From positions 1-64,000 of the forward strand of contig CAUJFL010000092.1 of NCBI GenBank assembly GCA_963169165.1: a DNA stretch of 64,000 bases. Direction: 5' to 3'. The notes beneath the pieces are model-generated. The model ran no database searches. It had not been told where the DNA came from and was given only the letters and a program-made list of their open reading frames with translations. This document shows positions 35,476-53,690 of the stretch, in pieces. The translations under genes and the position numbers were made by a program. The DNA comes from Myxococcota bacterium (GTDB lineage Bacteria > Myxococcota_A > Polyangia > Polyangiales > Polyangiaceae). The first letter of the stretch is position 1, and every line of letters begins with the position of its first letter.

Positions 35476-37236
35476 TCAGCGCTTCGCCGAGGGGGCGGGC
35501 CGCGAGGTGCCGTTGGCGACCCACGCGCGCTCGAGCCCGACCGCGGCGTTCGTCAGCGTGACCTTGCCCTTGCCCGCCGTCAGCTGCACCGTGTCGCCCC
35601 ACTGGGCCACGGGCGGCAGGGTGATCGAGCGCTGACCCTTCAGCGCCGCGAGCCCGGCGGCGTCGGCGGAGAACACCGCGATTCCGGCGCCCGCCAGCGC
35701 GCTCGCGAGGCCGCTCGGGAGGGCCGCGCCGATGACGACGCGCACGCTGGCGTCCAGCTCGCCGACGCGCGTCGCGAGGGCGCGCGCGCTGTCGGCCGAC
35801 GCGAGCAGCGCCACCTCGGCGCCGCCAGGCTCGGGGAGCGCCTCGACGAGGTCGAACGTCGTCGTCTTCCAGCCGCGCGGCGCCGGGGCGGCGAGCGGTT
35901 TGTCGCGCTTCGGGGCGCCCGCCTCGGGCTTGCGCTCGCGCGTGACGAGCACGTCGTCGGTCGGCAGCACCCGCGGGATCGTCACGCGCACTGGGCGCTT
36001 GAACGCGCGCGGATCGCCGAGCGTCCCCGTCGCGACCGCGTAGGCGAGCGTCTCGGCGGACGCGACGATGAACCCCGGCGCGAGCGGCTCGGGATCGCAG
36101 GTGCGCAGCGACGTGCGCCCCGGCCCGACCGGATAGAGCTCGCCCGCCATCACGCGACGATCCGGCTCGACGATGCGCGCGCCGGTCGCGGCGAGATCGG
36201 CGAGCGCGCCCGACTGCGCCAGCACCTCGAGGGCCTGACGCGAAGGCGGCGCGACGAGGAAATCGAGGCGCGACGGCACGCGCTTCGATTTGAGCAACGC
36301 CGCCGCGGCCAGCAGGTCGCGGAGATTGGTGCCCGAGTCGCCGCCCAGGATCGCCTGGTGGATGGGCTTGCCCGCGAGATCGCGCACCGAGCGCACCTGC
36401 CCCTGCTCGTCGCAGATCAGCGGATCGACCGTGCCGAGATCGAGCGTCACCGCGTCGTCGCACGGCGCGCCTTGATCGGCGAACAGCGTGCGGTGCGCCT
36501 TCGAGCGGCGCTGATCTCGCAAGAAGCTCTCGGTCTTCTCGTCGGACAGGAACAGCCCCGCGGCGGCGCCCAGCATCGGCGCCGCGCCCGCGAGCACCGC
36601 GCGCTCGGAGACGTTCAGCAGCTTGGCGCTCTGGCCCGCGAACTCGAGGACGACGGGCGCGCGGTGGCGCTCTTCGATCCGCTTGACCACGTCGCCGATG
36701 CCTCGACGCACGAGCTCGAGCGCGACGTCGCGAGCGCACACGAACGGCCGCGTTCGTCCCGAGATGAGGATCTGCACGGAGCGCGGCGGCCGTAGCCACA
36801 CCGAGCCCTGCGCGAGCGCCTGCGCGAGCTGCCCCGGCGACGCCAGGAGCACCAGCATGCCGACACCGCCGAGCGGCGCGAGGCGCGGATCGTCGGTGAG
36901 CGCGAGGCGCGCGGGCGAGCCGAACCGCTCGAGGTGCACCGGCGCGGGGAAGCCGATCCCGGGGCGGGCGACCTGGACGCCGGCGGAGAGCATCTCGGGG
37001 ACGACCGCGGACCACGCGCCCGCGGCGACCTTGGAGTTCCACGCGACGTCGGTGACGCAGACGCCGTCGTAGGCGACGGCGACCTCGAGGGGGGTTTTCT
37101 TGAGGCCCGCGGCGACCGCCTCGACATAGGCGCGCGTCGGCGCCCGCGAGAGGATCACCTGATCGACCTTGACCTGGACGAGATCGCCCCTCAGCTGAGG
37201 ATCGGCGGCCCGCCCGGCCAGGATCTTTTGGGGCAT
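35476..37236 (-). CDS. Aconitase-superfamily homolog (large plus swivel domain architecture) lacking canonical catalytic/Fe-S motifs
   Basis: MPQKILAGR start; GVGMLVLLASPGQLAQALAQGSVWLRPPRSVQILISGRTRPFVCARDVALELV; VLEFAGQSAKLLNVSERAVL...GLFLSDEKTESFL; GGDSGTNLRDLLAAAALLKSKRVPSRLDFLVAPPS all track aconitase/LeuC blocks. Confidence 0.75.
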   Translation of the reverse strand: MPQKILAGRAADPQLRGDLVQVKVDQVILSRAPTRAYVEAVAAGLKKTPLEVAVAYDGVCVTDVAWNSKVAAGAWSAVVPEMLSAGVQVARPGIGFPAPVHLERFGSPARLALTDDPRLAPLGGVGMLVLLASPGQLAQALAQGSVWLRPPRSVQILISGRTRPFVCARDVALELVRRGIGDVVKRIEERHRAPVVLEFAGQSAKLLNVSERAVLAGAAPMLGAAAGLFLSDEKTESFLRDQRRSKAHRTLFADQGAPCDDAVTLDLGTVDPLICDEQGQVRSVRDLAGKPIHQAILGGDSGTNLRDLLAAAALLKSKRVPSRLDFLVAPPSRQALEVLAQSGALADLAATGARIVEPDRRVMAGELYPVGPGRTSLRTCDPEPLAPGFIVASAETLAYAVATGTLGDPRAFKRPVRVTIPRVLPTDDVLVTRERKPEAGAPKRDKPLAAPAPRGWKTTTFDLVEALPEPGGAEVALLASADSARALATRVGELDASVRVVIGAALPSGLASALAGAGIAVFSADAAGLAALKGQRSITLPPVAQWGDTVQLTAGKGKVTLTNAAVGLERAWVANGTSRPAPSAKR

Positions 37237-37438
37237 CGTGCGAGGCGGATCGCCTGCTCGCGCGCGCATGTTGGAAGTTCCGAGCTCCGACGTTTCGTGG
37301 GTTTCGTGGCGCCCGGCGCCGCTTCGGACGGCTGCGAGCGGCCAGGGAAGTTATCCGCTCGAAAGCCAGGGGGTCAAGCGAGCCTTTTGGAAAGAACTTC
37401 CCGAAAGGGTGCGCGCCCTCGTAATCTGCCGCACCACG

Positions 37439-37798
37439 ATGTTCAAAGAAGCGCTCGCGCACGTGGTCGACGGGACCGAGGGCGGCCTCGCCGGCCTGCT
37501 GATGGATTTTCAAGGTGTCGCGGTCGAGACCTACACGAAGCCTGGCGCGGCGCTCGACATGGACATCGTCGGCGCCGAGTTCTCCGTCGTGATCAAGTCG
37601 ATCCAGCGCGCCGCCGAGTCGCTCGAGGCCGGTCGCGCGCAAGAGGTCGCGGTCAGCGTCGACAAGATGATCACGGTGATCCGCGTGCTGAACTCCGACT
37701 ACTTCGTCGCGCTCGCGATGGCGCCGGACGGCAACATCGGCAAGGGGCGCTACCTGCTGCGCACCGCCGCGCCGAAGCTCCTCTCCGAGCTCGAATGA
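37439..37798 (+). CDS. Roadblock/LC7 domain protein
   Basis: GLAGLLMDFQGVAVETYTK...FSVVIKSIQRAAESLEAGRAQEVAVSVDKMITVIRVLNSDYFVALAMAPDGNIGKGRYLLRTAAPKLLSEL. Confidence 0.88.
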   Translation: MFKEALAHVVDGTEGGLAGLLMDFQGVAVETYTKPGAALDMDIVGAEFSVVIKSIQRAAESLEAGRAQEVAVSVDKMITVIRVLNSDYFVALAMAPDGNIGKGRYLLRTAAPKLLSELE

Positions 37799-43354: not shown

Positions 43355-43464
43355 GCCGCCGTCGACGATAGCGGAACCCGCGGCGCGACGGAGCGCGACG
43401 GCCCGGATCGCCGTTGACCCGGCGACCTGGGCGTTCTAGTCACACTGTAACGAGGTCGGTCGCC

Positions 43465-44073
43465 ATGCCCGTGCAAGTCCCGCAGGTTCGTATCCTCGTC
43501 GTCGATGACGACAAGGCCATCTGTGAGTACGTCCAGACCGTCCTCGAGAAGGACGGCTACTCGGTCAAGACCCTGAGCAACCCGCTCGCCGCCGAAGAAG
43601 AGGTGCGCCACGGCGATTTTCACCTGATCTTGCTCGATCTGATGATGCCGAAGCTCGACGGCATCGAGGTCCTGAAGAAGATCCGCAAGCTCGACAGCGA
43701 CGTGGCCGTCGTGATCTTCACCGGGTTCCCGACGCTGGACACCGCGGTCGCCGGCATGAAGCTCGACATCGTCGACTACATCAAGAAGCCCTTCCAGGTC
43801 GAAGATCTCCGCGAGGTCGTCGCCCGCGTGATGAAGAAGAAGGGCCTCGCGCGCACGCCCGAGGAGCAGCTCCACAAGGTGATCGGCGACACGATCCGCA
43901 ACATGCGCAAGGATCAGAAGCTGACCTTGAAGCAGATGAGCAAGCGCACGGGGCTGTCGGTGTCGCTGCTGTCGCAGATCGAGCGCGCCGAGTCCTCCGC
44001 GTCGATCCAGAGCCTCTACAAGATCGCGTGCGCGTTCAACGCGCGCATCCAGGATCTGTTCGGCGAGCTCTGA
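43465..44073 (+). CDS. Receiver-domain protein fused to XRE/Cro-type helix-turn-helix
   Basis: REC: ILVVDDDKAICEYV...LILLDLMMPKLDGIEVL...IKKPF; HTH: IRNMRKDQKLTLKQMSKRTGLSVSLLSQIERAESSASIQSLYKIACAF. Confidence 0.93.
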   Translation: MPVQVPQVRILVVDDDKAICEYVQTVLEKDGYSVKTLSNPLAAEEEVRHGDFHLILLDLMMPKLDGIEVLKKIRKLDSDVAVVIFTGFPTLDTAVAGMKLDIVDYIKKPFQVEDLREVVARVMKKKGLARTPEEQLHKVIGDTIRNMRKDQKLTLKQMSKRTGLSVSLLSQIERAESSASIQSLYKIACAFNARIQDLFGEL

Positions 44074-44107: not shown

Positions 44108-45154
44108 GTGAGAAGAGCCGGTCGCTTGCGACGCTCCGTCCGCTCACCCTCCCTGCTCGCGCTGTGCGCCGCGCTCTCGGCGTGCGGCTCGACGCCCGCC
44201 GACACCACGTTCGCGCCGTACACCGATCTTCACGTCGATCCCGAGACGTTCCGTGGCGAGCTGCCCTGCGGCACCGCGCCGGGCGCGATGCGCTCGTACG
44301 TCGTCAAGCTCTGGGACGTCACGGGTCAGGCCGCGGTCGACCTCACCGGCGCGACCCCGATCATCGTGTCGCAGCCCACCCAGTGCGCGCAGTCGGCGGC
44401 CTTCTCGGTCGTGCAGCCGGGGAGCTTCTACGTGGGGACCATCGACGCCTACGACATCCCGAGGCCGTGCCTCGACGCGGCGTCCTGCGGCGCCGTCACG
44501 GCGCCCGTGGCGTCGACCGACTGCGGCTTCGGCAAGGGGCCAGAGGTGCCTCCGCCCCCGCCGCTCGAGGGAGAGGTGTTCGGGCCGCCCGACGCGACCC
44601 AGTCGATCTACCTCCGACGGGTGCTGCTGCGCGGCTGTCGAGCGATGCAGCGCGCGTCCTCTGCGGCGACGTCTTCCACGCGCGCGCTCGTCGCGGGCGT
44701 CGGGTGCGGGACGGGCGTCGACCAGGTCGAGCGGCTGAAGATCGTGCGGGCGGATGCGGCGACGTTCGATTTGTTGTGCGGCGATCCGCTGCCGCTCGCG
44801 ACGGTCGGCGCGACCGGCTCGCGCGCGTCGATCTTCGCCTACGCGCCGCAGGCCGAGTCGCCGCGCTGGGGGACCACCTGCGAGGTGGGCGCGACCGCGC
44901 TCGCCTGCGCGCCGCTGTCCGATCGCGGCGCGATCGTCGTCCGTGGCGCGGACGTGTGCGGGGGCGCCACGGGTGATTTTCATGTGCGCGCCGTGGGCGG
45001 CGCCGCCGAGGCCACCGCGCCGTGCGCTGGCGAGGCGTCCCTGGCGAGCCTGCCGGTCGCGGCCTACACGCTGCTCGTCGACGGCGGGGGTCAGGCGTCG
45101 TGCAAGGCCGTCGTGTCACCCGGGCAACAGACCGTCGCCACCTGCGTCCGCTAG
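44108..45154 (+). CDS. Lipoprotein of unknown function
   Basis: Lipobox LCAALSACGS; secreted Cys-containing protein. Confidence 0.68.
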   Translation: MRRAGRLRRSVRSPSLLALCAALSACGSTPADTTFAPYTDLHVDPETFRGELPCGTAPGAMRSYVVKLWDVTGQAAVDLTGATPIIVSQPTQCAQSAAFSVVQPGSFYVGTIDAYDIPRPCLDAASCGAVTAPVASTDCGFGKGPEVPPPPPLEGEVFGPPDATQSIYLRRVLLRGCRAMQRASSAATSSTRALVAGVGCGTGVDQVERLKIVRADAATFDLLCGDPLPLATVGATGSRASIFAYAPQAESPRWGTTCEVGATALACAPLSDRGAIVVRGADVCGGATGDFHVRAVGGAAEATAPCAGEASLASLPVAAYTLLVDGGGQASCKAVVSPGQQTVATCVR

Positions 45155-46548
45155 TCGCGCGGCGCCACCGCGCCGGGGCGGGCTTCGCCGAGCTGGCCGC
45201 GGTCGTTGAGCCCGAAGCACGCGACCTCGCCGTCGAGCGACAGCGCGCACGTGTGGCGGCTCCCCGCGGTGATCGCGCCGATCCGCGCGACCTCGAGCAC
45301 CCGGCGGGGCTCGTGCGTCGTGACGAAGCCGCCGTCGCCCAGCTGTCCGTCCTGGTCCCAGCCCCAGCACCGCGCCTCGTCGCCGTCGACCCGCGCGCAG
45401 GTGTGCCCGTTGCCGGCGGTGAGGGAGAGCGCGCGCAGCCCGTCGATGCGGGTCGGCGTGAGGACCTCCGCGCGCGCGGGCTGACCTGCCTGCCCGTCCT
45501 GGTTCCGGCCCCAGCACGACACGCTCCCAGCTCCGTCGCGGATGCAGGCGTGCTCGCGCCCGACCGCGAGCTCGACCGCACCGGCGCGCCAGGCGACGAC
45601 CGGGCGACGATTGGGAGCCTTGTTGCCGCCGCCGAGCTGTCCGTGATCGTTGAGCCCCCAGCAGACGACCTTGCCGCCCGTCACAAGCGCGCACGTCGTG
45701 TCGAGGCCCGCGCCGAGGGCGACCGCGCCCTCGACGGCGACCGACGCGGGCGCGCGCGACGTCTCCACGCCGAAATTTCCCCAGCAGACGACGCCTCGGT
45801 CGCGCGTGATGGCGCACGTATGGCGCATCCCGGCGGCGACCGCGATGGCGGACACGCCCGGCACGACCGCGGGCCTCCACGGGGCCTCGTCGGCCACGCC
45901 TCGCTCGCCGTGCGTGTCGCTCCCCCAGCAGGCGATCTCGCCGCCCTCGAGGACCGCGCACGTGTGGTCGCCGCCGGCAGAGAGCGCGGTGGCCCTCGCG
46001 GGGAGCGGCACGGCGCGCGCGCCGACGGACAGATCCGCCGCCTCCGCGCCCAGCTGCCCCGCGTCGTTCGAGCCCCAGCACCTCACCTCGCCGCTCGACG
46101 TTCGCGCACACGTGTGGTGCCGCCCCGCGCTGAGGGCCACGATGTGCACGCACGCGCCCCGCGCGTCGCACGTGCCGCCGCGCTCGCACGCCGAACCCTC
46201 ACGGGCTGGCTGCTCGACCGGGGCCCCGCGCTGGCACGCGCGCACGCGGCACGCGGCGCCGCTGGGGACGGCGGGCACGTCGGCCAGATCCTCGCGCGAG
46301 ACGAGCGCGCCGCCCTCGCACGCTGCGCGCCGACAGTCTCCGGCGACCTGCTGGTCGTCGGGCAGCGGTCCGGGGGGCAGGGACCTCGTGACGCACCGCC
46401 CGGCCTCGCACGCGCGCCGGGCGCACGGACCCGCTTCACCGCAGTCGCCGTGTCCCGCGCACTCGGCGGCGGCGGGGCGAGGCGCGCCGGGCGGTGGACC
46501 CGACGCGCACGACGCGAGCCACACGAACACCAGCCACATCGAGCGCAT
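45151..46548 (-). CDS. RCC1-repeat lipoprotein
   Basis: Lipobox VWLASCAS; repeated GxxHTCA...VxCWGxNxxGQLG blades. Confidence 0.88.
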   Translation of the reverse strand: MRSMWLVFVWLASCASGPPPGAPRPAAAECAGHGDCGEAGPCARRACEAGRCVTRSLPPGPLPDDQQVAGDCRRAACEGGALVSREDLADVPAVPSGAACRVRACQRGAPVEQPAREGSACERGGTCDARGACVHIVALSAGRHHTCARTSSGEVRCWGSNDAGQLGAEAADLSVGARAVPLPARATALSAGGDHTCAVLEGGEIACWGSDTHGERGVADEAPWRPAVVPGVSAIAVAAGMRHTCAITRDRGVVCWGNFGVETSRAPASVAVEGAVALGAGLDTTCALVTGGKVVCWGLNDHGQLGGGNKAPNRRPVVAWRAGAVELAVGREHACIRDGAGSVSCWGRNQDGQAGQPARAEVLTPTRIDGLRALSLTAGNGHTCARVDGDEARCWGWDQDGQLGDGGFVTTHEPRRVLEVARIGAITAGSRHTCALSLDGEVACFGLNDRGQLGEARPGAVAPRD

Positions 46549-46574: not shown

Positions 46575-48521
46575 TCACTCGACGATGAGCGTGCCGACGC
46601 CCTTGTCGGTGAACAGCTCGGCGATCACCGAGTGGGGCACCCGCCCGTCCAGCAGGTGGACGCGCCGCACCCCGCCGCGGAGCGCGGAGCGAGCAGCCGC
46701 GACCTCGGGCTCGTCGCGCGCGGACAGCGACGAGATCGTCGCCTCCGAGACCAGCTCTCCGCCCTCGAACAGGCCCGGCGCGCTGCCCACGAACACCAGC
46801 TTCTCGGCGCGCAGCGCGACCGCGATCGCGGCCGCCGCGGCGGGCAGCGAGAGATCGACCGACGCGCCGTCGTCGGCCCGCGCGAACGGCGCGATGACGG
46901 GCACGTACCCCTTGTCGAGCAGCACCTCGACGAGCGTGGGATCGACGGCGGGGACGAGGCTGCCGTCGGGCTCGCGGCGCGCCCGCAAGAAGCCGCCGTC
47001 GGTCCCGGACACCCCCACGGCGCGCGCGCCGTCGCGGTTCACGAGCTGCACCATCTCCTCGGTCAGCGCCGCCGCCTCGGGCCCCGCCGCGTGGACGATG
47101 AGCGGCGCCAGCCCCGCCGACGCGAGCAAGTTCACGTCCGCCGCGAAGGTGGCGCGTCGCGACGACGTCGCGAGCTGCGCGGGCCCGCACGCGATCACCG
47201 CGCGCGTCCCCGCGAACGCCGCGATGTAGGACAGCGCCTCGACGAGCAGCGCGCGCTTGAACCCCGGCGTGTAGTTGGTCAGCCGATCGTCGCGCGTGAC
47301 CGTGCCGTCATCAGCCGCGGTGATCGCCCGCGCGTAGTCGGCGTTGATCTTCACGTAGTCGTACGAGAGATCGCAGCCGTACGCCGTCGCCGTCGCGCCG
47401 CCGTCGCCCGGCAGGGAGATGTCGACGTGGACCTCGGGCTCGCGCATCTTCGCGCCGAGCGCCGCGCGCGCGCCGTCGACCGGCGCGCCGTCGACGAAGA
47501 CGGCGATCCCTTGCAGCTTCACGCTGCACCCCGCCGCGTCGACGCGGTGACCTCTCGACCCGGCGCGCGCGCCGAGCGCCGCGACGACGCGCCCCCAGTT
47601 CGGATCGGCGCCGAAGACCGCGGCCTTCACGAGCGGAGAGCCCGCGACGGCGCGCGCGAGATCCCTCGCCACGTCTTCGGTGGGCGCGCCCCGGACCTCG
47701 ACGGTCAACAGTCGCGACGCGCCCTCTCCGTCCTCGGCGACGGCGCGGGCGAGCTCGGACAGCGCCTCGGCGATCGCGCGCTCGAACGCGACGAGCTCGT
47801 CAGCGGACAGCGCCACGCCGCTCGCCCCGTTCGCGAGCGCGAACACCGCGTCGTTGGTGCTCGTCTCTCCGTCGATCGTCAGGCTCCCGAACGAGCCGGG
47901 CAGCGCGCGATCGAGGGCCGCGCCGAGCGTCGCCTCGTCGAGCGCGGCGTCGGTCGTGATCACGGCCAGCACCGTCGCGAGCTCGGGGTGTACCATCCCC
48001 GAGCCCTTCGCGAACGCCGAGAGCCGCACCACGCCGCGCGGCGTCTCGACCGCGCGCGCCGCGAGCTTGACCCGGGTGTCGGTCGTGAAGATCGCCTCGG
48101 CCGCGGCCTCGATGGCGGGTCCGAGCGCCGCCACGAGGCGCGGAGCCGCGTCGCAGAGCTTCTTCGCGGGGAGGCGGACGCCGATGACGCCCGTCGAGGC
48201 CGCGAGCACCGTCGCCACGTCGACGCCGAGCTCGCGGGCGACCGCGCCCCGGACGAGGGCGCTGTCCGCGAGGCCCGCCGCGCCGGTGAGCGCGTTCGCG
48301 TTGCCGCTGTTGAGCACGAGCGCCCGGACCGACGTGGAGGGCAGCAGCGCGCGCGCCTCGAGGACGGGCGCGGCCGCCGCGAGGTTGGTCGTGAAGCGCC
48401 CGACGCAGACGGCGGGCCGATCGCTGGCGACGAGCGCGAGATCCTTGCGAGCGGCCTTGATGCCAGCGTGGACGCCCGCATACGAGAACCCGCGCGCCGA
48501 CTCCATGATGGCGCGGCTCAT
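46575..48521 (-). CDS. argJ: ArgJ (glutamate N-acetyltransferase/ornithine acetyltransferase) fused to C-terminal acetylglutamate-kinase-like domain
   Basis: ArgJ: GVHAGIKAARKDLALVASD, NSGNANALTG, GSGMVHPELATVLAVITTDA, TIDGETSTNDAVFALAN, FGADPNWGRV, YDYVKINADY. C-terminal ~228 aa track ArgB: KRALLVEALSYIAAFAGTRAVIACGP...AADVNLLASAGLAPLIVHAAGP...VHLLDGRVPHSVIAELFTDKGVGTLI. Confidence 0.9.
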   Translation of the reverse strand: MSRAIMESARGFSYAGVHAGIKAARKDLALVASDRPAVCVGRFTTNLAAAAPVLEARALLPSTSVRALVLNSGNANALTGAAGLADSALVRGAVARELGVDVATVLAASTGVIGVRLPAKKLCDAAPRLVAALGPAIEAAAEAIFTTDTRVKLAARAVETPRGVVRLSAFAKGSGMVHPELATVLAVITTDAALDEATLGAALDRALPGSFGSLTIDGETSTNDAVFALANGASGVALSADELVAFERAIAEALSELARAVAEDGEGASRLLTVEVRGAPTEDVARDLARAVAGSPLVKAAVFGADPNWGRVVAALGARAGSRGHRVDAAGCSVKLQGIAVFVDGAPVDGARAALGAKMREPEVHVDISLPGDGGATATAYGCDLSYDYVKINADYARAITAADDGTVTRDDRLTNYTPGFKRALLVEALSYIAAFAGTRAVIACGPAQLATSSRRATFAADVNLLASAGLAPLIVHAAGPEAAALTEEMVQLVNRDGARAVGVSGTDGGFLRARREPDGSLVPAVDPTLVEVLLDKGYVPVIAPFARADDGASVDLSLPAAAAAIAVALRAEKLVFVGSAPGLFEGGELVSEATISSLSARDEPEVAAARSALRGGVRRVHLLDGRVPHSVIAELFTDKGVGTLIVE

Positions 48522-48590
48522 GGTGGAGCGCGCGGCGGGCCGCAAGGCCCGAAAGTCCGCGTCGTGTCGCGGGTATGATAGGATGGAGTC

Positions 48591-49307
48591 GTGCAATTTC
48601 GCCGCGCGCTCCTGATGTTCGCAGGCCTGGGCGCGCTCGTCGCCGCCTGCGCCGGCGGAGAGGATACGACGCCCGAGATCGTGACCCTCGATCCGGCGGG
48701 GTCGGGCGGAGCGTCGAGCGCGGGCGGCGCGCCGGGAGACAGCGGCGCCGCGGGCGAAGGTGACTCGGGCGCCGACGGCGGCGTCGGTCAATTCCCCGAC
48801 GCATCGGGTGGAGCGTCGGGCGCGGGCGGCATCGGCGCCGCGGGGTTCCCCTCGGAGTGCTCGCCCGGCGCGAAGGATCAGATGGGCCCGTGCGGCAACT
48901 GCGGGACGATGACCCGCACCTGCAGCGCCACCGGCTCCTGGGGCGAGCCCGCGTGCGAGGGCGCGGGAGAGTGCAAGGCAGGAGACAAACAAACCGAACC
49001 ATGTGGGCACTGCGGCGACAAGACCCGCACGTGCAACGCCGCCTGCAAGTGGGACGCGTTCGGGGGCTGCTCGGGAGAGGGCGCGTGCGCGCCGGGGTCG
49101 ACCCAGGCCGGCGGCTGCGAGGGTTGCCAGCAGCAGGTCTGCGGCAACGACTGCAAGTGGGGCGGCTGCGCGCTCAAGCCCGGCAACGAGTGCACCTGGG
49201 ACGAGGGCAAGCACTTCAAGTGCTGCGGCACGGGCCAGTGGTCGTTCTGCTCGGCGTCTTGCAAGTGGAACCCCTGCGGCTCGACGTCGACGAGCAACTG
49301 CCCCTGA
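48591..49307 (+). CDS. Cysteine-rich lipoprotein
   Basis: GTG start, lipobox ALVAACAG, Gly/Ser/Ala linker, repeated GPCGNCGTMTRTC / EPCGHCGDKTRTC units. Confidence 0.75.
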   Translation: MQFRRALLMFAGLGALVAACAGGEDTTPEIVTLDPAGSGGASSAGGAPGDSGAAGEGDSGADGGVGQFPDASGGASGAGGIGAAGFPSECSPGAKDQMGPCGNCGTMTRTCSATGSWGEPACEGAGECKAGDKQTEPCGHCGDKTRTCNAACKWDAFGGCSGEGACAPGSTQAGGCEGCQQQVCGNDCKWGGCALKPGNECTWDEGKHFKCCGTGQWSFCSASCKWNPCGSTSTSNCP

Positions 49308-49322
49308 CGAGGTCGCGCACCC

Positions 49323-52300
49323 GTGCGCAAGCTCCACGCCGCCGCCGACCACCCGATCGTGCGCTGGCTGGCGCGCGCTCTGCTCGGGCTGCTCGCGCTC
49401 GTCGGCGCGTTGCCGTTGCTCGCCGTGCTCGCGCTCCGGGCTCCTGTCGTTCAGGCTCGCCTCGAGCGCGAGGCCAAGGCCGTCTTGCTGCGCGAGCTCG
49501 GGCTCACCTGCTCGTTCAGGGCGGAGGTGAGGCTGCTCCCCCCCGAGGTCGTCCTGCGCGACGTCGTGGTCCCCGCGACCGACGGCCCCGCGCCCGCGCT
49601 CACCACGCCGCTCGCGCGAGCGCGCCCGAGGCTGTTCTCGCTCCTCTCGGGTCGCCTCGACGCCGGCGAGATCACGCTGGAGGCGCCGCGTGTCCGGCTC
49701 GTGGCCGACGCGAGCGGCGTGACGAACGTCGCGTACAGGCTCCCTCCGGCCAAGGCTCCGCGTCCGGTCTCGATCGAGCCGCCGCTGCGTCGCCTCTCGG
49801 TGCAGGGCGCCTCTGTCGATCTGTCGCTGCCCGGCCTGCGCGTCGAGGCATCGTCGCTCACCGCGCTCGTGTCGCTGCGCTCGGGGCCGGTCGCCGACGT
49901 GGCGCTCGAGCTCGAGCGGGGCAAGCTCACGCGCGCGCGCGACGGTCACGTCGACGAGGACGTCGTCTGCGGGCTGGGGCTGGACGCGACCGTGTCGTCC
50001 ACCCGCGCCGTCATCCGTCGCCTCGACCTCGCCGCTGGGCTCGATCCGGAGGGCGCCGCTTCGCCGTCGTGTGAGGCGCTCGACGACGCGACGCGCGCGT
50101 CGCTGTCCCTCTCCGAGGTCGATCTCGCGCTCGAAGGCGCCGCGCCCGCGGGTCACGCGCGCCTGCGAGTCGACCTCCCGCTGTGGCCGCTCGACCGGGT
50201 CACGCCGCCGACCGCGCCGCGCATCTCCGGGCGCGCCGCGCTCGAGCTCGAGCTCGACCACGACGGCTCGATGACGCTCCCGAGGGGGCGCGGCACGCTC
50301 CACGTCGACGAGCTCGCGTTCACCGATGGGGGCGTCTCGCACCTGGCGGCGCACGCGGTCGACGCGGTCGTGGTCTCGGGCGGCACCGCCGTCGAGCTCG
50401 AGCGCGCAGACGTCCGGTGGGGCGGCGGCGAGGCGCGCCTCACCCACGCTCGCGTCGCGGTGCTCGAGCCGGGGCTCCCCGTCGACGTCGAGCTCGTGTC
50501 CGCTCGAGGCCTGCAGTTCCCCGCGATCATGGCCGATCTGGGGATCACCCCACACACGATCGTCAAGTGGTCGCTCGACACGGTCGAGATCGCCGGGTTC
50601 CGCGGCCACATCATCGAGCCCACGCTCGGCGGCCCGTCGATGCACGGAGAGATCTCGGGCGACACCACCGACTTCGAGGTCGGCGATCGAGGCTGGGACC
50701 ACCCCGCGCGCCGAAGGCTCGTCGGCGTCAAGCGCGCGAAGGTGCGCGGGACGTTCGGCGTCGAGCCCGACGCCATCACGTTCACGAAGATGCTCGCGGA
50801 CTTCGGCCAGAGCCACCTCGACGTGCCGCGCGTCTTCATCGGGTTCAGCCGCCCGGTCGAGGTGCGCGCGGTCGCGCCGACGCGCGTAGACCTCGCCGAC
50901 ATCGGACCCATCGCCGAGATCCCCGTGGCCGGCCGCGTCGACGCGGCGATGTGGGTGCACGCCGTGGCGGGTCAGACGCGCATCGACGGCGAGCTCGAGG
51001 CGGCGGGCCTGGTGATGGGCGGGCTGCCGCTCGCGGACACGATGACGGCCAAGGCCGCGTTCGTCCCGCTGGTGCTCGAGCTGACCGAGGTGCGCGCGCA
51101 GAAGGGGAAGAGCCCCTACGAGGCGTCGCTCGTGCGGCTCGATTTCGATCGCCCGCGAGGGGTCGTGCTCGACGCGCGCGTGACGACGAGGTCCCTCGAT
51201 CTTCGCGATGGGCTCGCGATGCTCACGCTCGACCAGGATCCGCGGCTCGCCGAGATCTCCGGCGCTGGCGCCGCGCGGGGTGAGCTTCACTTCGAGGTCG
51301 GCACCGAGCGCGACGTCTGCGGCGGAGGTCTGCTCGAGGCGCGCGTCGTCGCCGAGCTGGGGCCGATGCAGCTCTACGGAGAGCGCTACGACGGCGGCAG
51401 CGCCGACGTCGACTACATCTGGTTCGATCGCGCCGGAGAGCACCGCGGCGTCGAGGCGATCCTCCGCGCGTTCACGCTGAGGAAGGGCAGGGGAGTGATC
51501 AGCGGCGCGGGCTCGATGCGGGGCGGCGGCGTGCTCGAAGGGCGGTTCTCCGCGCACGACGTGCCGCTCTCTCGCCTCGACGCGCTCGGCGATCTCGGCC
51601 GCGCCGTCGACGGCAGCGTGAGCGCGTCCGGCACGGTGTCGGGCACCGTCGAGGAGCTCGCGGCGTTCGCGACCGTGTCGATGCCGCCCGTGCGGGTAGG
51701 ACAGCGCTGGTTGCCGTCGTCCGACTTCACCGTCGAGCTCGTCCCGACGAACCGCGCGTCACGGCCCGGGCCGACGACCCGGTGCGGCAGCGCGATCCCC
51801 AGACCGTTCGACCGCGCCGAGTACGATCGAGACGAGGCCGACGGCGTGTTCCACACGAGCGGGAGCCTCTTCGGGGGCACGGTCGAGCTCGCCGACGTCA
51901 CGACCACCCGCCAGCGCGCGAAGCGCACGCGCGGCAAGGTGTCGCTGAGACAGCTCGATCTCGGCGCGGTCGCGCAGCTCTCGCCCGCGATGGCGCTCGC
52001 CGACGCGCCGCCGTCGGGGCAGCTGTCCGCGGTCGTGCAGCTCGATGACATGGAGAACGATCGTCCCGAGCTGGCCGACGCGCGGATCGAGCTCTCCGCG
52101 CTGTCGCTGGCGAAGGGCGGCGTCACCGCGAAGCTCTCGCCGAAGAAGGGGCCCGTCGCGCTCGTGTTCTCGCGGGGGCGTCTGTCGATCTCCGAGCTCC
52201 CGATCGCGGTCGAGAGCCCCGGCGGCGCGAGCGGCACCCTCTCGATGCGCGGCGAGGTCACGAACCTCGGCACCACGCGCGATCTGGATCTCTCGGCCGA

Positions 52301-53690
52301 CCTGTTGCCGCTCGATCTGTCCGCGCTGCCCCGCGTGGTGCCCGCGATCGAGTCAGCGCGCGGGAGGCTCGAGGGCGCGCTGTCGATCCGCGGCCGCGCG
52401 GAGGCTCCCGAGCTCTCGGGCGAGGTGCGTCTCAGCGGCGGCGAGCTCTCGCTGACCGGCGTGCCCGCGTCGCTCGAGGGGGTCGAGCTGGTCGCGCGGG
52501 TGTCGAGAGAAGAGATCCAGATCGTCCGCGCCGACGCCCGCGCGGGCGTCGGCAAGGTCGCCCTGCGCGGTCGCGCCGCGCTGCGGGGCTACGAGGTCGG
52601 CGACATCGAGCTGCGCCTCGACGCGGACGGCGTGCGCGCGCCGATCGCCGACGGCGTCGACCTGACCCTCGACGCTCGCCTCGGGCTGTCGTCGCGTCGG
52701 CCCGCGCCCGGCAAGCCTCGCCGCGCCGAGGTCCGCGGCGACCTCACCATAGCTCACTTTCTCTACACGCGCCCGATCGGCTTCTCGATGAGCCTCGACA
52801 AGCTCGCGAAGCAGGGGCGGCGCACCGAGGTGAGCACGTACGATCCGTCGCGCGATCTCGTCGACTTCGATCTCGCGGTCCGCGCCAGCGCGCCGCTGGT
52901 CTTTCGCAACAACCTCATCCAGGCCAAGGTCACCGTCGGCGAGACGCTGCGGCTCGAGGGCACGAACCAGCGCTTCGGCATGCGGGGCAACCTCCGCGTC
53001 GAGAAGGGCGGCACCCTGCGCCTGCGCGCCAACGAGTTCGAGATCTCGCAGGGCACGATCCGCTTCGATGATCCGACCCGCGTCGCTCCCCGCGTCGATC
53101 TGCGCGCGACGACCGAGTACCGCCGCTACACGTCGAGCGTCTCGCAGGCGACCGGCGCGAGCGCGGGCGCGCAGACCACGGGCGGTCGCGCGGGCGGCTC
53201 GTGGCGCATCGCGCTGCACGCGCACGGCGACGCCGACGATCTCAAGCTCGATCTGTCGAGCGAGCCGTCGCTCGGCCAGGACGACCTCGTCCTCTTGCTC
53301 GCGATCGGGATGACCCGCGCCGAGATCGATCAGCTGCAGGCGTCCAACGTCGGCAGCGCGGCGGCGTTCGAGGCGCTCTCCGCGCTCTCCGGCGCCGACA
53401 ACGCCGTGAAGACCGCCATCCCCATCATCGACGACTTTCGCTTCGGCAGCGCGTACTCCACGCGCACCGGCCGCACGGAGCCCACCGTCACGGTCGGCAA
53501 GCGGCTGACGTCGCGCCTGCGCGCCAACGTGATCACCGGCCTCTCCGAGAACCGCGACGTCCGCTCGAACCTCGAGTGGCGCCTGTCGCCGCAGACCAGC
53601 GTCCTCGGCAACTACGACAACCTCAACGACGTCACCAGCCAGGGGCTCGGCAACCTGGGCACCGATTTTCGCGTCAGGCTGGAGTTCTGA
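49323..53690 (+). CDS. TamB/AsmA-like translocation-assembly protein (DUF490)
   Basis: N-terminal TM (LALVGALPLLAVLALRAPVVQARLEREA); long repetitive beta-rich body; C-terminal DDLVLLLAIGMTRAEIDQ...GTDFRVRLEF typical of TamB. Confidence 0.9.
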   Translation: MRKLHAAADHPIVRWLARALLGLLALVGALPLLAVLALRAPVVQARLEREAKAVLLRELGLTCSFRAEVRLLPPEVVLRDVVVPATDGPAPALTTPLARARPRLFSLLSGRLDAGEITLEAPRVRLVADASGVTNVAYRLPPAKAPRPVSIEPPLRRLSVQGASVDLSLPGLRVEASSLTALVSLRSGPVADVALELERGKLTRARDGHVDEDVVCGLGLDATVSSTRAVIRRLDLAAGLDPEGAASPSCEALDDATRASLSLSEVDLALEGAAPAGHARLRVDLPLWPLDRVTPPTAPRISGRAALELELDHDGSMTLPRGRGTLHVDELAFTDGGVSHLAAHAVDAVVVSGGTAVELERADVRWGGGEARLTHARVAVLEPGLPVDVELVSARGLQFPAIMADLGITPHTIVKWSLDTVEIAGFRGHIIEPTLGGPSMHGEISGDTTDFEVGDRGWDHPARRRLVGVKRAKVRGTFGVEPDAITFTKMLADFGQSHLDVPRVFIGFSRPVEVRAVAPTRVDLADIGPIAEIPVAGRVDAAMWVHAVAGQTRIDGELEAAGLVMGGLPLADTMTAKAAFVPLVLELTEVRAQKGKSPYEASLVRLDFDRPRGVVLDARVTTRSLDLRDGLAMLTLDQDPRLAEISGAGAARGELHFEVGTERDVCGGGLLEARVVAELGPMQLYGERYDGGSADVDYIWFDRAGEHRGVEAILRAFTLRKGRGVISGAGSMRGGGVLEGRFSAHDVPLSRLDALGDLGRAVDGSVSASGTVSGTVEELAAFATVSMPPVRVGQRWLPSSDFTVELVPTNRASRPGPTTRCGSAIPRPFDRAEYDRDEADGVFHTSGSLFGGTVELADVTTTRQRAKRTRGKVSLRQLDLGAVAQLSPAMALADAPPSGQLSAVVQLDDMENDRPELADARIELSALSLAKGGVTAKLSPKKGPVALVFSRGRLSISELPIAVESPGGASGTLSMRGEVTNLGTTRDLDLSADLLPLDLSALPRVVPAIESARGRLEGALSIRGRAEAPELSGEVRLSGGELSLTGVPASLEGVELVARVSREEIQIVRADARAGVGKVALRGRAALRGYEVGDIELRLDADGVRAPIADGVDLTLDARLGLSSRRPAPGKPRRAEVRGDLTIAHFLYTRPIGFSMSLDKLAKQGRRTEVSTYDPSRDLVDFDLAVRASAPLVFRNNLIQAKVTVGETLRLEGTNQRFGMRGNLRVEKGGTLRLRANEFEISQGTIRFDDPTRVAPRVDLRATTEYRRYTSSVSQATGASAGAQTTGGRAGGSWRIALHAHGDADDLKLDLSSEPSLGQDDLVLLLAIGMTRAEIDQLQASNVGSAAAFEALSALSGADNAVKTAIPIIDDFRFGSAYSTRTGRTEPTVTVGKRLTSRLRANVITGLSENRDVRSNLEWRLSPQTSVLGNYDNLNDVTSQGLGNLGTDFRVRLEF

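Follow-up and report, generated by a model that had tools for sequence, protein, structure and literature searches.

A degenerate NAG kinase domain fused to ArgJ in Myxococcota: a possible arginine-sensing pseudokinase

What might a kinase-like domain that has lost its catalytic residues contribute to the complete ArgJ enzyme to which it is fused? This question is raised by a gene of the window (i.e. the whole stretch of 64,000 nucleotides that was analysed, from contig CAUJFL010000092.1 of the Myxococcota bacterium assembly GCA_963169165.1), which encodes ArgJ followed, in the same frame, by a degenerate NAG kinase (AAK) domain. In this study, the catalytic state of both domains, the distribution of the fusion, the retention of its arginine site and the remaining arginine genes of the genomes concerned are considered, together with the explanations that they permit.

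Results

Layout of the fusion gene and its surroundings

The fusion gene runs from an ATG at 48521 to a stop codon at 46575-46577 (Table 1). It lies within an open frame of 1660 codons (46575-51557, minus strand) that has no stop codon upstream of the likely start; this long frame is a high-GC artefact, and the ATG at 48521 was taken as the putative start on the basis of alignment to homologues. A first-pass annotation had described one 648-aa frame with a complete ArgJ followed by an ArgB-like domain, and both the arrangement and its coordinates were borne out by profile and alignment evidence; the observation was correct in detail, the strand alone (minus) having been left unstated. The AAK domain comprises approximately residues 417-648 and can be aligned over its full length to NAG kinases of known structure, among them that of T. 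maritima (2bty, E=1.3e-34), for which the match was obtained in two stretches (query 21-96 and 82-244). A sequencing or assembly artefact was ruled out, since a congeneric genome (G038, 81% identical) has the same deletions.

Table 1. Features of the ArgJ-AAK fusion gene and their positions in the window
Feature	Position	Strand	Remarks
ArgJ-degenerate NAG kinase (AAK) fusion, whole gene, 648 aa	46575..48521	-	
ArgJ domain, residues 6-397	47331..48506	-	Thr110/Gly111 oxyanion, Lys172, nucleophile Thr183, Glu266 and Asn393 positions all retained
Thr183, expected self-cleavage nucleophile (A/T junction in ELATVL)	47973..47975	-	From sequence; conserved in 88/88 fusions
Linker between ArgJ and AAK, residues 398-418, ...DGTVTRDDRLTNYTPG	47268..47330	-	Conserved across fusions; model confidence mostly low
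Retained N-terminal helix, residues 419-436, LLVEALSYIAAF	47214..47267	-	Tyr432 matches arginine-site Tyr15 of T. maritima NAGK
Lost K8-x-G-G motif, residues 444-447	47181..47192	-	KYGG to ACGP
Lost HGGG motif, residues 477-480	47082..47093	-	To HAAG
Deletion of GxRVT substrate-binding segment	47070..47081	-	GLRVT in intact ArgB; approximate site
Lost NxNAD motif, residues 556-561	46839..46856	-	NVNADT to DLSLPA
Lys574 of AEKL	46800..46802	-	Aligned to Lys196 of T. maritima NAGK (2bty); retained in 43/43 dead domains
Deletion of GGMxxK with second catalytic lysine K217	46704..46715	-	GGMIPK in intact ArgB; approximate site
Retained arginine-site motif AELFTDKGVGT, residues 634-644	46590..46622	-	E635 = key glutamate

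Several neighbouring genes of the window were also annotated. Just downstream of the fusion gene, a protein encoded at 45151-46548 (minus strand) contains seven RCC1_2 repeat matches, and its start is possibly lipoprotein-like. The gene at 43414-44073 (plus strand) encodes a response regulator receiver domain combined with a Cro/C1-type HTH_3 domain (Pfam, 102.6 and 45.7 bits), the latter being an uncommon response-regulator output, and adjoins CheA/CheW-like genes on the opposite strand. A TamB/AsmA-like protein of 1455 aa (TamB, 145 bits) is encoded at 49323-53690 (plus strand).

A complete ArgJ and a kinase-like domain devoid of catalytic residues

The ArgJ part passed the curated models NF003802 (402 bits vs a cut-off of 351) and TIGR00120 (353.9 vs 298), as well as Pfam PF01960 (408 bits vs 32). 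Its active site (Thr nucleophile, T-G oxyanion, Lys of KGSGM, Glu and Asn) is complete in the window protein, as it is in 43/43 dead fusions (defined below), and the cleavage region that had been pointed out previously, ELATVLAVITTDA, is present. After cleavage at Thr183, itself inferred from the ArgJ family, the beta chain would carry the AAK domain. The inhibitor usually reported for ArgJ enzymes is ornithine, not arginine (PMC3827942).

The AAK domain scored under the curated ArgB cut-off (TIGR00761, 64.6 vs 151.3 bits). Six catalytic or substrate residues were assessed (K8, G44 of HGGG, R66, N158, D162 and K217, in E. coli numbering), the motifs being read by aligning the domain with the genome's own intact ArgB; none of the six is retained in the window protein, and all six are lost in the congener too. 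The degenerate and deleted NAG kinase motifs reported in the first-pass annotation were thereby confirmed. The domain could in principle still be a kinase, acting on NAG or on another substrate by means of substitute residues, as its overall AAK fold is retained and pseudokinases occasionally retain activity. However, the domain lacks, all at once, the glycine-rich HGGG, both phosphate-binding lysines, the Asp of metal binding or catalysis and the substrate residues Arg and Asn. Nothing equivalent is visible in the alignment, and continued kinase activity is regarded as barely credible.

Distribution of the fusion and repeated loss of its kinase

The fusion was detected in approximately 20 of 60 genomes of the window's family. 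A scan of species genomes returned 80 loci, in every one of which the AAK domain shares a single frame with ArgJ sequence; most of them carry a Myxococcota or Deltaproteobacteria label (Polyangiaceae, Kofleriaceae, Archangium, Anaeromyxobacter, Polyangium and others), and further fusion families turned up in a sample of the phylum. Removal of copies at least 95% identical left a set of 88 fusions, in which 28 keep all six tested residues (live), 17 miss one, and 43, the window protein included, miss at least two (dead). This survey of ArgJ homologues reveals a fusion that recurs widely in Myxococcota, often with an intact kinase, and a loss of the kinase that is itself recurrent.

In a tree of the ArgJ domain, constructed by a quick method, the fusions are placed apart from seven stand-alone ArgJ rows (support 96), a topology that would be consistent with one fusion event within this sample. 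On the same tree the live/dead label switches 13 times by parsimony, with at least six switches on well-supported branches. In Polyangium-type genomes, no ArgJ or NAG kinase is recognisable apart from an intact fusion, and the latter is therefore probably a working enzyme for both steps. Dead copies include those of the cultured Archangium violaceum and A. lansinium and of family f11.

Two further observations were made in this set. In a whole clade of Anaeromyxobacter fusions (L071, L076, L081, L089, L099-L102, L104-L108, L111 and L114), HGGG has become HGGA and NxNAD has become SxNAD. Both catalytic lysines are kept, and in many of these fusions the arginine loop ends in GVGS; they may be partly altered kinases. 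At locus L031 (G008:C659), a stand-alone argJ (35850-37016) is directly followed by a stand-alone argB (37088-37789), and a neighbourhood of this type could give rise to a fusion.

Retention of the arginine site in dead domains

The arginine site of arginine-sensitive NAGK and NAGS enzymes is marked by the signature E-L-F-(T/S)-x-x-G-x-G-T and a tyrosine of the N-terminal helix (PMC3236213); it also includes a key glutamate and a key lysine of the central sheet, the loop being given as E-(L/I)-(F/M)-(T/S)-x-x-G-x-G-T (PMC4490483). The dead domains retain the motif, the lysine and the glutamate without exception (43/43 each), and the helix tyrosine in 42/43, with phenylalanine in the remaining one. 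Through its alignment with Lys196 of 2bty, Lys574 fits the key lysine of the central sheet, its correspondence to Lys201 of ngNAGS being inferred without a residue-by-residue alignment. As one genome scan had been baited with the motif AELFT[DSE]xG[VI]G, its loci cannot prove that the motif is retained, and retention was retested on loci found without it. The motif is kept in 16/16 such dead domains. For columns conserved to 90% or more among the live fusions, retention in these domains is 0.97 within the ELFT loop, 0.89 within the helix and 0.55 elsewhere (Mann-Whitney p=1.4e-6); this p-value serves as a guide only, because the columns are interdependent and the sequences related. The most eroded fusions, those of family f11 (L191 and L194-L197), have all six catalytic positions lost or deleted and, even so, LVxGLxYVRxF and ELFTxxGxGT kept.

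That an arginine-binding element is kept favours regulation over pure scaffolding. A solely structural role, in which the dead kinase assembles an ArgJ ring or docks the separate NAGK with no sensing of arginine (for example, in mixed hexamers or through channelling of the unstable acyl phosphate), would suit the near-constant presence of a separate intact NAGK and the behaviour of the N-terminal helix, which is ring-forming in arginine-sensitive NAGKs and constitutes the most constrained segment between the two congeners (dN/dS 0.05). It does not account for the invariance across the dead domains of the ligand residues Lys574 and Glu635 and of the GxGT loop; Lys574 belongs to the central sheet, away from the helix. 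Moreover, the separate NAGK of many genomes is devoid of the helix and cannot, therefore, form the same interlaced ring. A structural role alone is considered unlikely, though it cannot be set aside.

Selection and structure models

Degenerate AAK domains evolve under purifying selection. According to the Nei-Gojobori method, dN/dS of the dead domain is 0.25 between the window and its congener, while in eight dead pairs AAK values range from 0.03 to 0.51, similar to those of the ArgJ part. These ratios, the absence of frameshifts and stop codons from the dead domains, and the keeping of the same parts in many independent lineages, even in f11 where much else is deleted, argue against a decaying remnant, i.e. 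a fused kinase whose task was taken over by a separate argB and which is drifting to loss with no present role. Such decay would be in keeping with the piecemeal deletion of catalytic parts and with the presence of a separate NAGK beside nearly every dead fusion, yet it appears very unlikely.

AlphaFold2 modelling of the AAK domain gave a confident fold (pLDDT 85, pTM 0.82), the nearest solved structures being arginine-regulated NAGKs (e.g. arginine-bound 2bty), followed by gonococcal NAGS. The full-length model (pTM 0.63) has pLDDT values below 50 in the linker and helix, and the packing of AAK against ArgJ is not confident; consequently, no inter-domain mechanism can be read from the structure.

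Other arginine genes of the fusion-bearing genomes

The genome from which the window derives (G000; 5.8 Mb, 479 contigs, 84.6% complete) contains a bona fide stand-alone ArgB of 289 aa on contig C474, with all catalytic motifs and the arginine site, and a second ArgJ, cut by the contig end, on C248; the fusion is thus not the sole source of either activity. No match to the ArgA model over its cut-off was obtained in 10 genomes (G000 and nine relatives).

Stand-alone NAGKs were divided into type A, in which the helix, Lys and motif are present (34 loci, some of them repeat fetches), and type B, which is without the helix and motif (37 loci, a few more distant kinases included) and is therefore presumably insensitive to arginine, as in E. 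coli. Many dead-fusion genomes have a type B separate kinase, and in approximately 14 of these, some being drafts, the fusion is also the sole ArgJ found (e.g. G373, 97% complete; G248, 94% complete; G113, G126, G132, G137 and G138), making the dead domain the only recognisable arginine sensor of the acetylated steps there. The arrangement is that of E. coli, in which arginine is sensed by ArgA and not by the NAG kinase, but built on a different acetyltransferase. The separate kinase of the window genome is of type A, and a fused sensor would, accordingly, represent an additional control point in that organism. Three dead-fusion drafts of unknown completeness (G125, G129 and G149) yielded no separate NAGK at the threshold used.

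A rule whereby the fused kinase dies if a separate argB is present was not upheld: G091 and G092 keep intact motifs beside a type A kinase, and many intact fusions coexist with a type B argB. Coexistence thus permits loss of the kinase and does not force it. In most genomes of the window's family that have a type A argB, the fused kinase is dead or altered. Separately, extra divergent ArgB-like kinases over the TIGR00761 cut-off, with motifs such as NGGS/GNRLT/DADQ, were noted in the genomes of L186 (G020), L202 (G115, Archangium lansinium), L209 and L225.

Discussion

The explanation towards which we lean is that the fused AAK domain is an arginine-sensing pseudokinase that provides feedback control of ArgJ; there are no binding or activity data, and both arginine binding and its effect on activity are inferred. 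In the proposed sequence of events, ArgJ would cleave itself at Thr183, as inferred from its family and from the presence of the residue, with AAK remaining on the beta chain, and the AAK domains would associate via their N-terminal helices. L-arginine would then bind between this helix and the ELFTxxGxGT loop, as the conserved ligands imply, and the geometry of the kinase-like ring would shift, thereby lowering the acetyltransferase activity of the attached ArgJ. This last step is an inference by analogy with gonococcal NAGS, in which the change brought about by arginine rests on the AAK domain alone (PMC4490483), and the oligomeric change, like the sign and target of the effect, is likewise inferred. 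The outcome would be end-product feedback on glutamate acetylation by an AAK domain that no longer phosphorylates NAG. The earlier suggestion of a pseudokinase possibly regulating or scaffolding arginine synthesis is supported by the separate argB, the purifying selection and the kept arginine-binding element.

Certain points speak against a sensor. In arginine-sensitive NAGKs, the helix and loop also determine the form of the hexamer, and their retention could serve assembly alone; the model offers no confident AAK-ArgJ packing; and the reported inhibitor of ArgJ is usually ornithine, not arginine. Furthermore, as an arginine-site NAGK and another ArgJ are already available in the window genome, the benefit of a further sensor in that organism is unclear.

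The fusion may be compared with several known systems. Classical ArgA (N. gonorrhoeae 2r8v/3d2p; E. coli, P. aeruginosa) similarly joins a glutamate-acetylating enzyme to an AAK domain that has no kinase function but has the ELF(T/S)xxGxGT arginine site and an N-terminal helix that is mobile, and it is inhibited by arginine (PMC4490483). In ArgA, however, the GNAT partner is C-terminal to AAK, whereas the partner in the window protein is ArgJ, which has an unrelated (Ntn-type) fold and is N-terminal, indicating that the combination arose separately. The window protein scored under the cut-off of the ArgA model TIGR01890 (68.1 vs 202.85 bits), and a GNAT domain is absent from its Pfam scan. Arginine-sensitive ArgB (T. 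maritima 2bty, P. aeruginosa 2buf, M. tuberculosis 7nlf) has the fold, helix Tyr, AEKL Lys and ELFT loop in common with the window AAK, which differs in being without all tested catalytic motifs, fused to ArgJ and approximately 50-60 residues shorter. The likeness to ArgJ (M. tuberculosis 3it4, S. clavuligerus 1vz6) extends to a complete domain with all checked catalytic residues, but known ArgJ proteins end at approximately 400 residues, where the window protein continues into AAK. The bifunctional NAGS/K of Maricaulis and Xanthomonas (3s6g, 3s6k) combines NAG synthesis and AAK in one chain under arginine control (PMC3236213), but has a GNAT partner, a tetrameric form and an active kinase, which the window protein has lost; it is the kinase-intact ArgJ-NAGK fusions that constitute its functional parallel.

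The first-pass annotation had been unaware of any description of this fusion, and no prior description of an ArgJ-ArgB fusion protein was found in the subset of open-access papers searched, which is no proof of novelty; matches to 'argJB' were mostly operon names in staphylococci. The parts are already known; what looks new is that ArgJ and AAK are paired and that the pair has repeatedly been converted to a pseudokinase form.

A broader reading is that Myxococcota evolved a second, independent arginine-gated glutamate acetyltransferase, from an ArgJ-NAG kinase fusion whose kinase died repeatedly and was kept as an arginine-sensing pseudokinase, and that in several lineages feedback control would move from NAG kinase to ArgJ, arriving where ArgA of E. 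coli did from an unrelated acetyltransferase; the case for this reading is evenly balanced in our judgement. If true, arginine control is predicted for ArgJ, a class usually described as ornithine-controlled, and the fusion offers a natural replicate of the route by which a regulatory domain may have been gained by ArgA (and by vertebrate NAGS): fusion to a kinase, loss of its catalysis and retention of its allosteric pocket. Unlike the case of ArgA, all stages of this route would be extant in one phylum: the fusion as a sole-copy bifunctional protein (Polyangium), beside a second kinase, half-eroded (Archangium), and fully dead (the window protein and f11).
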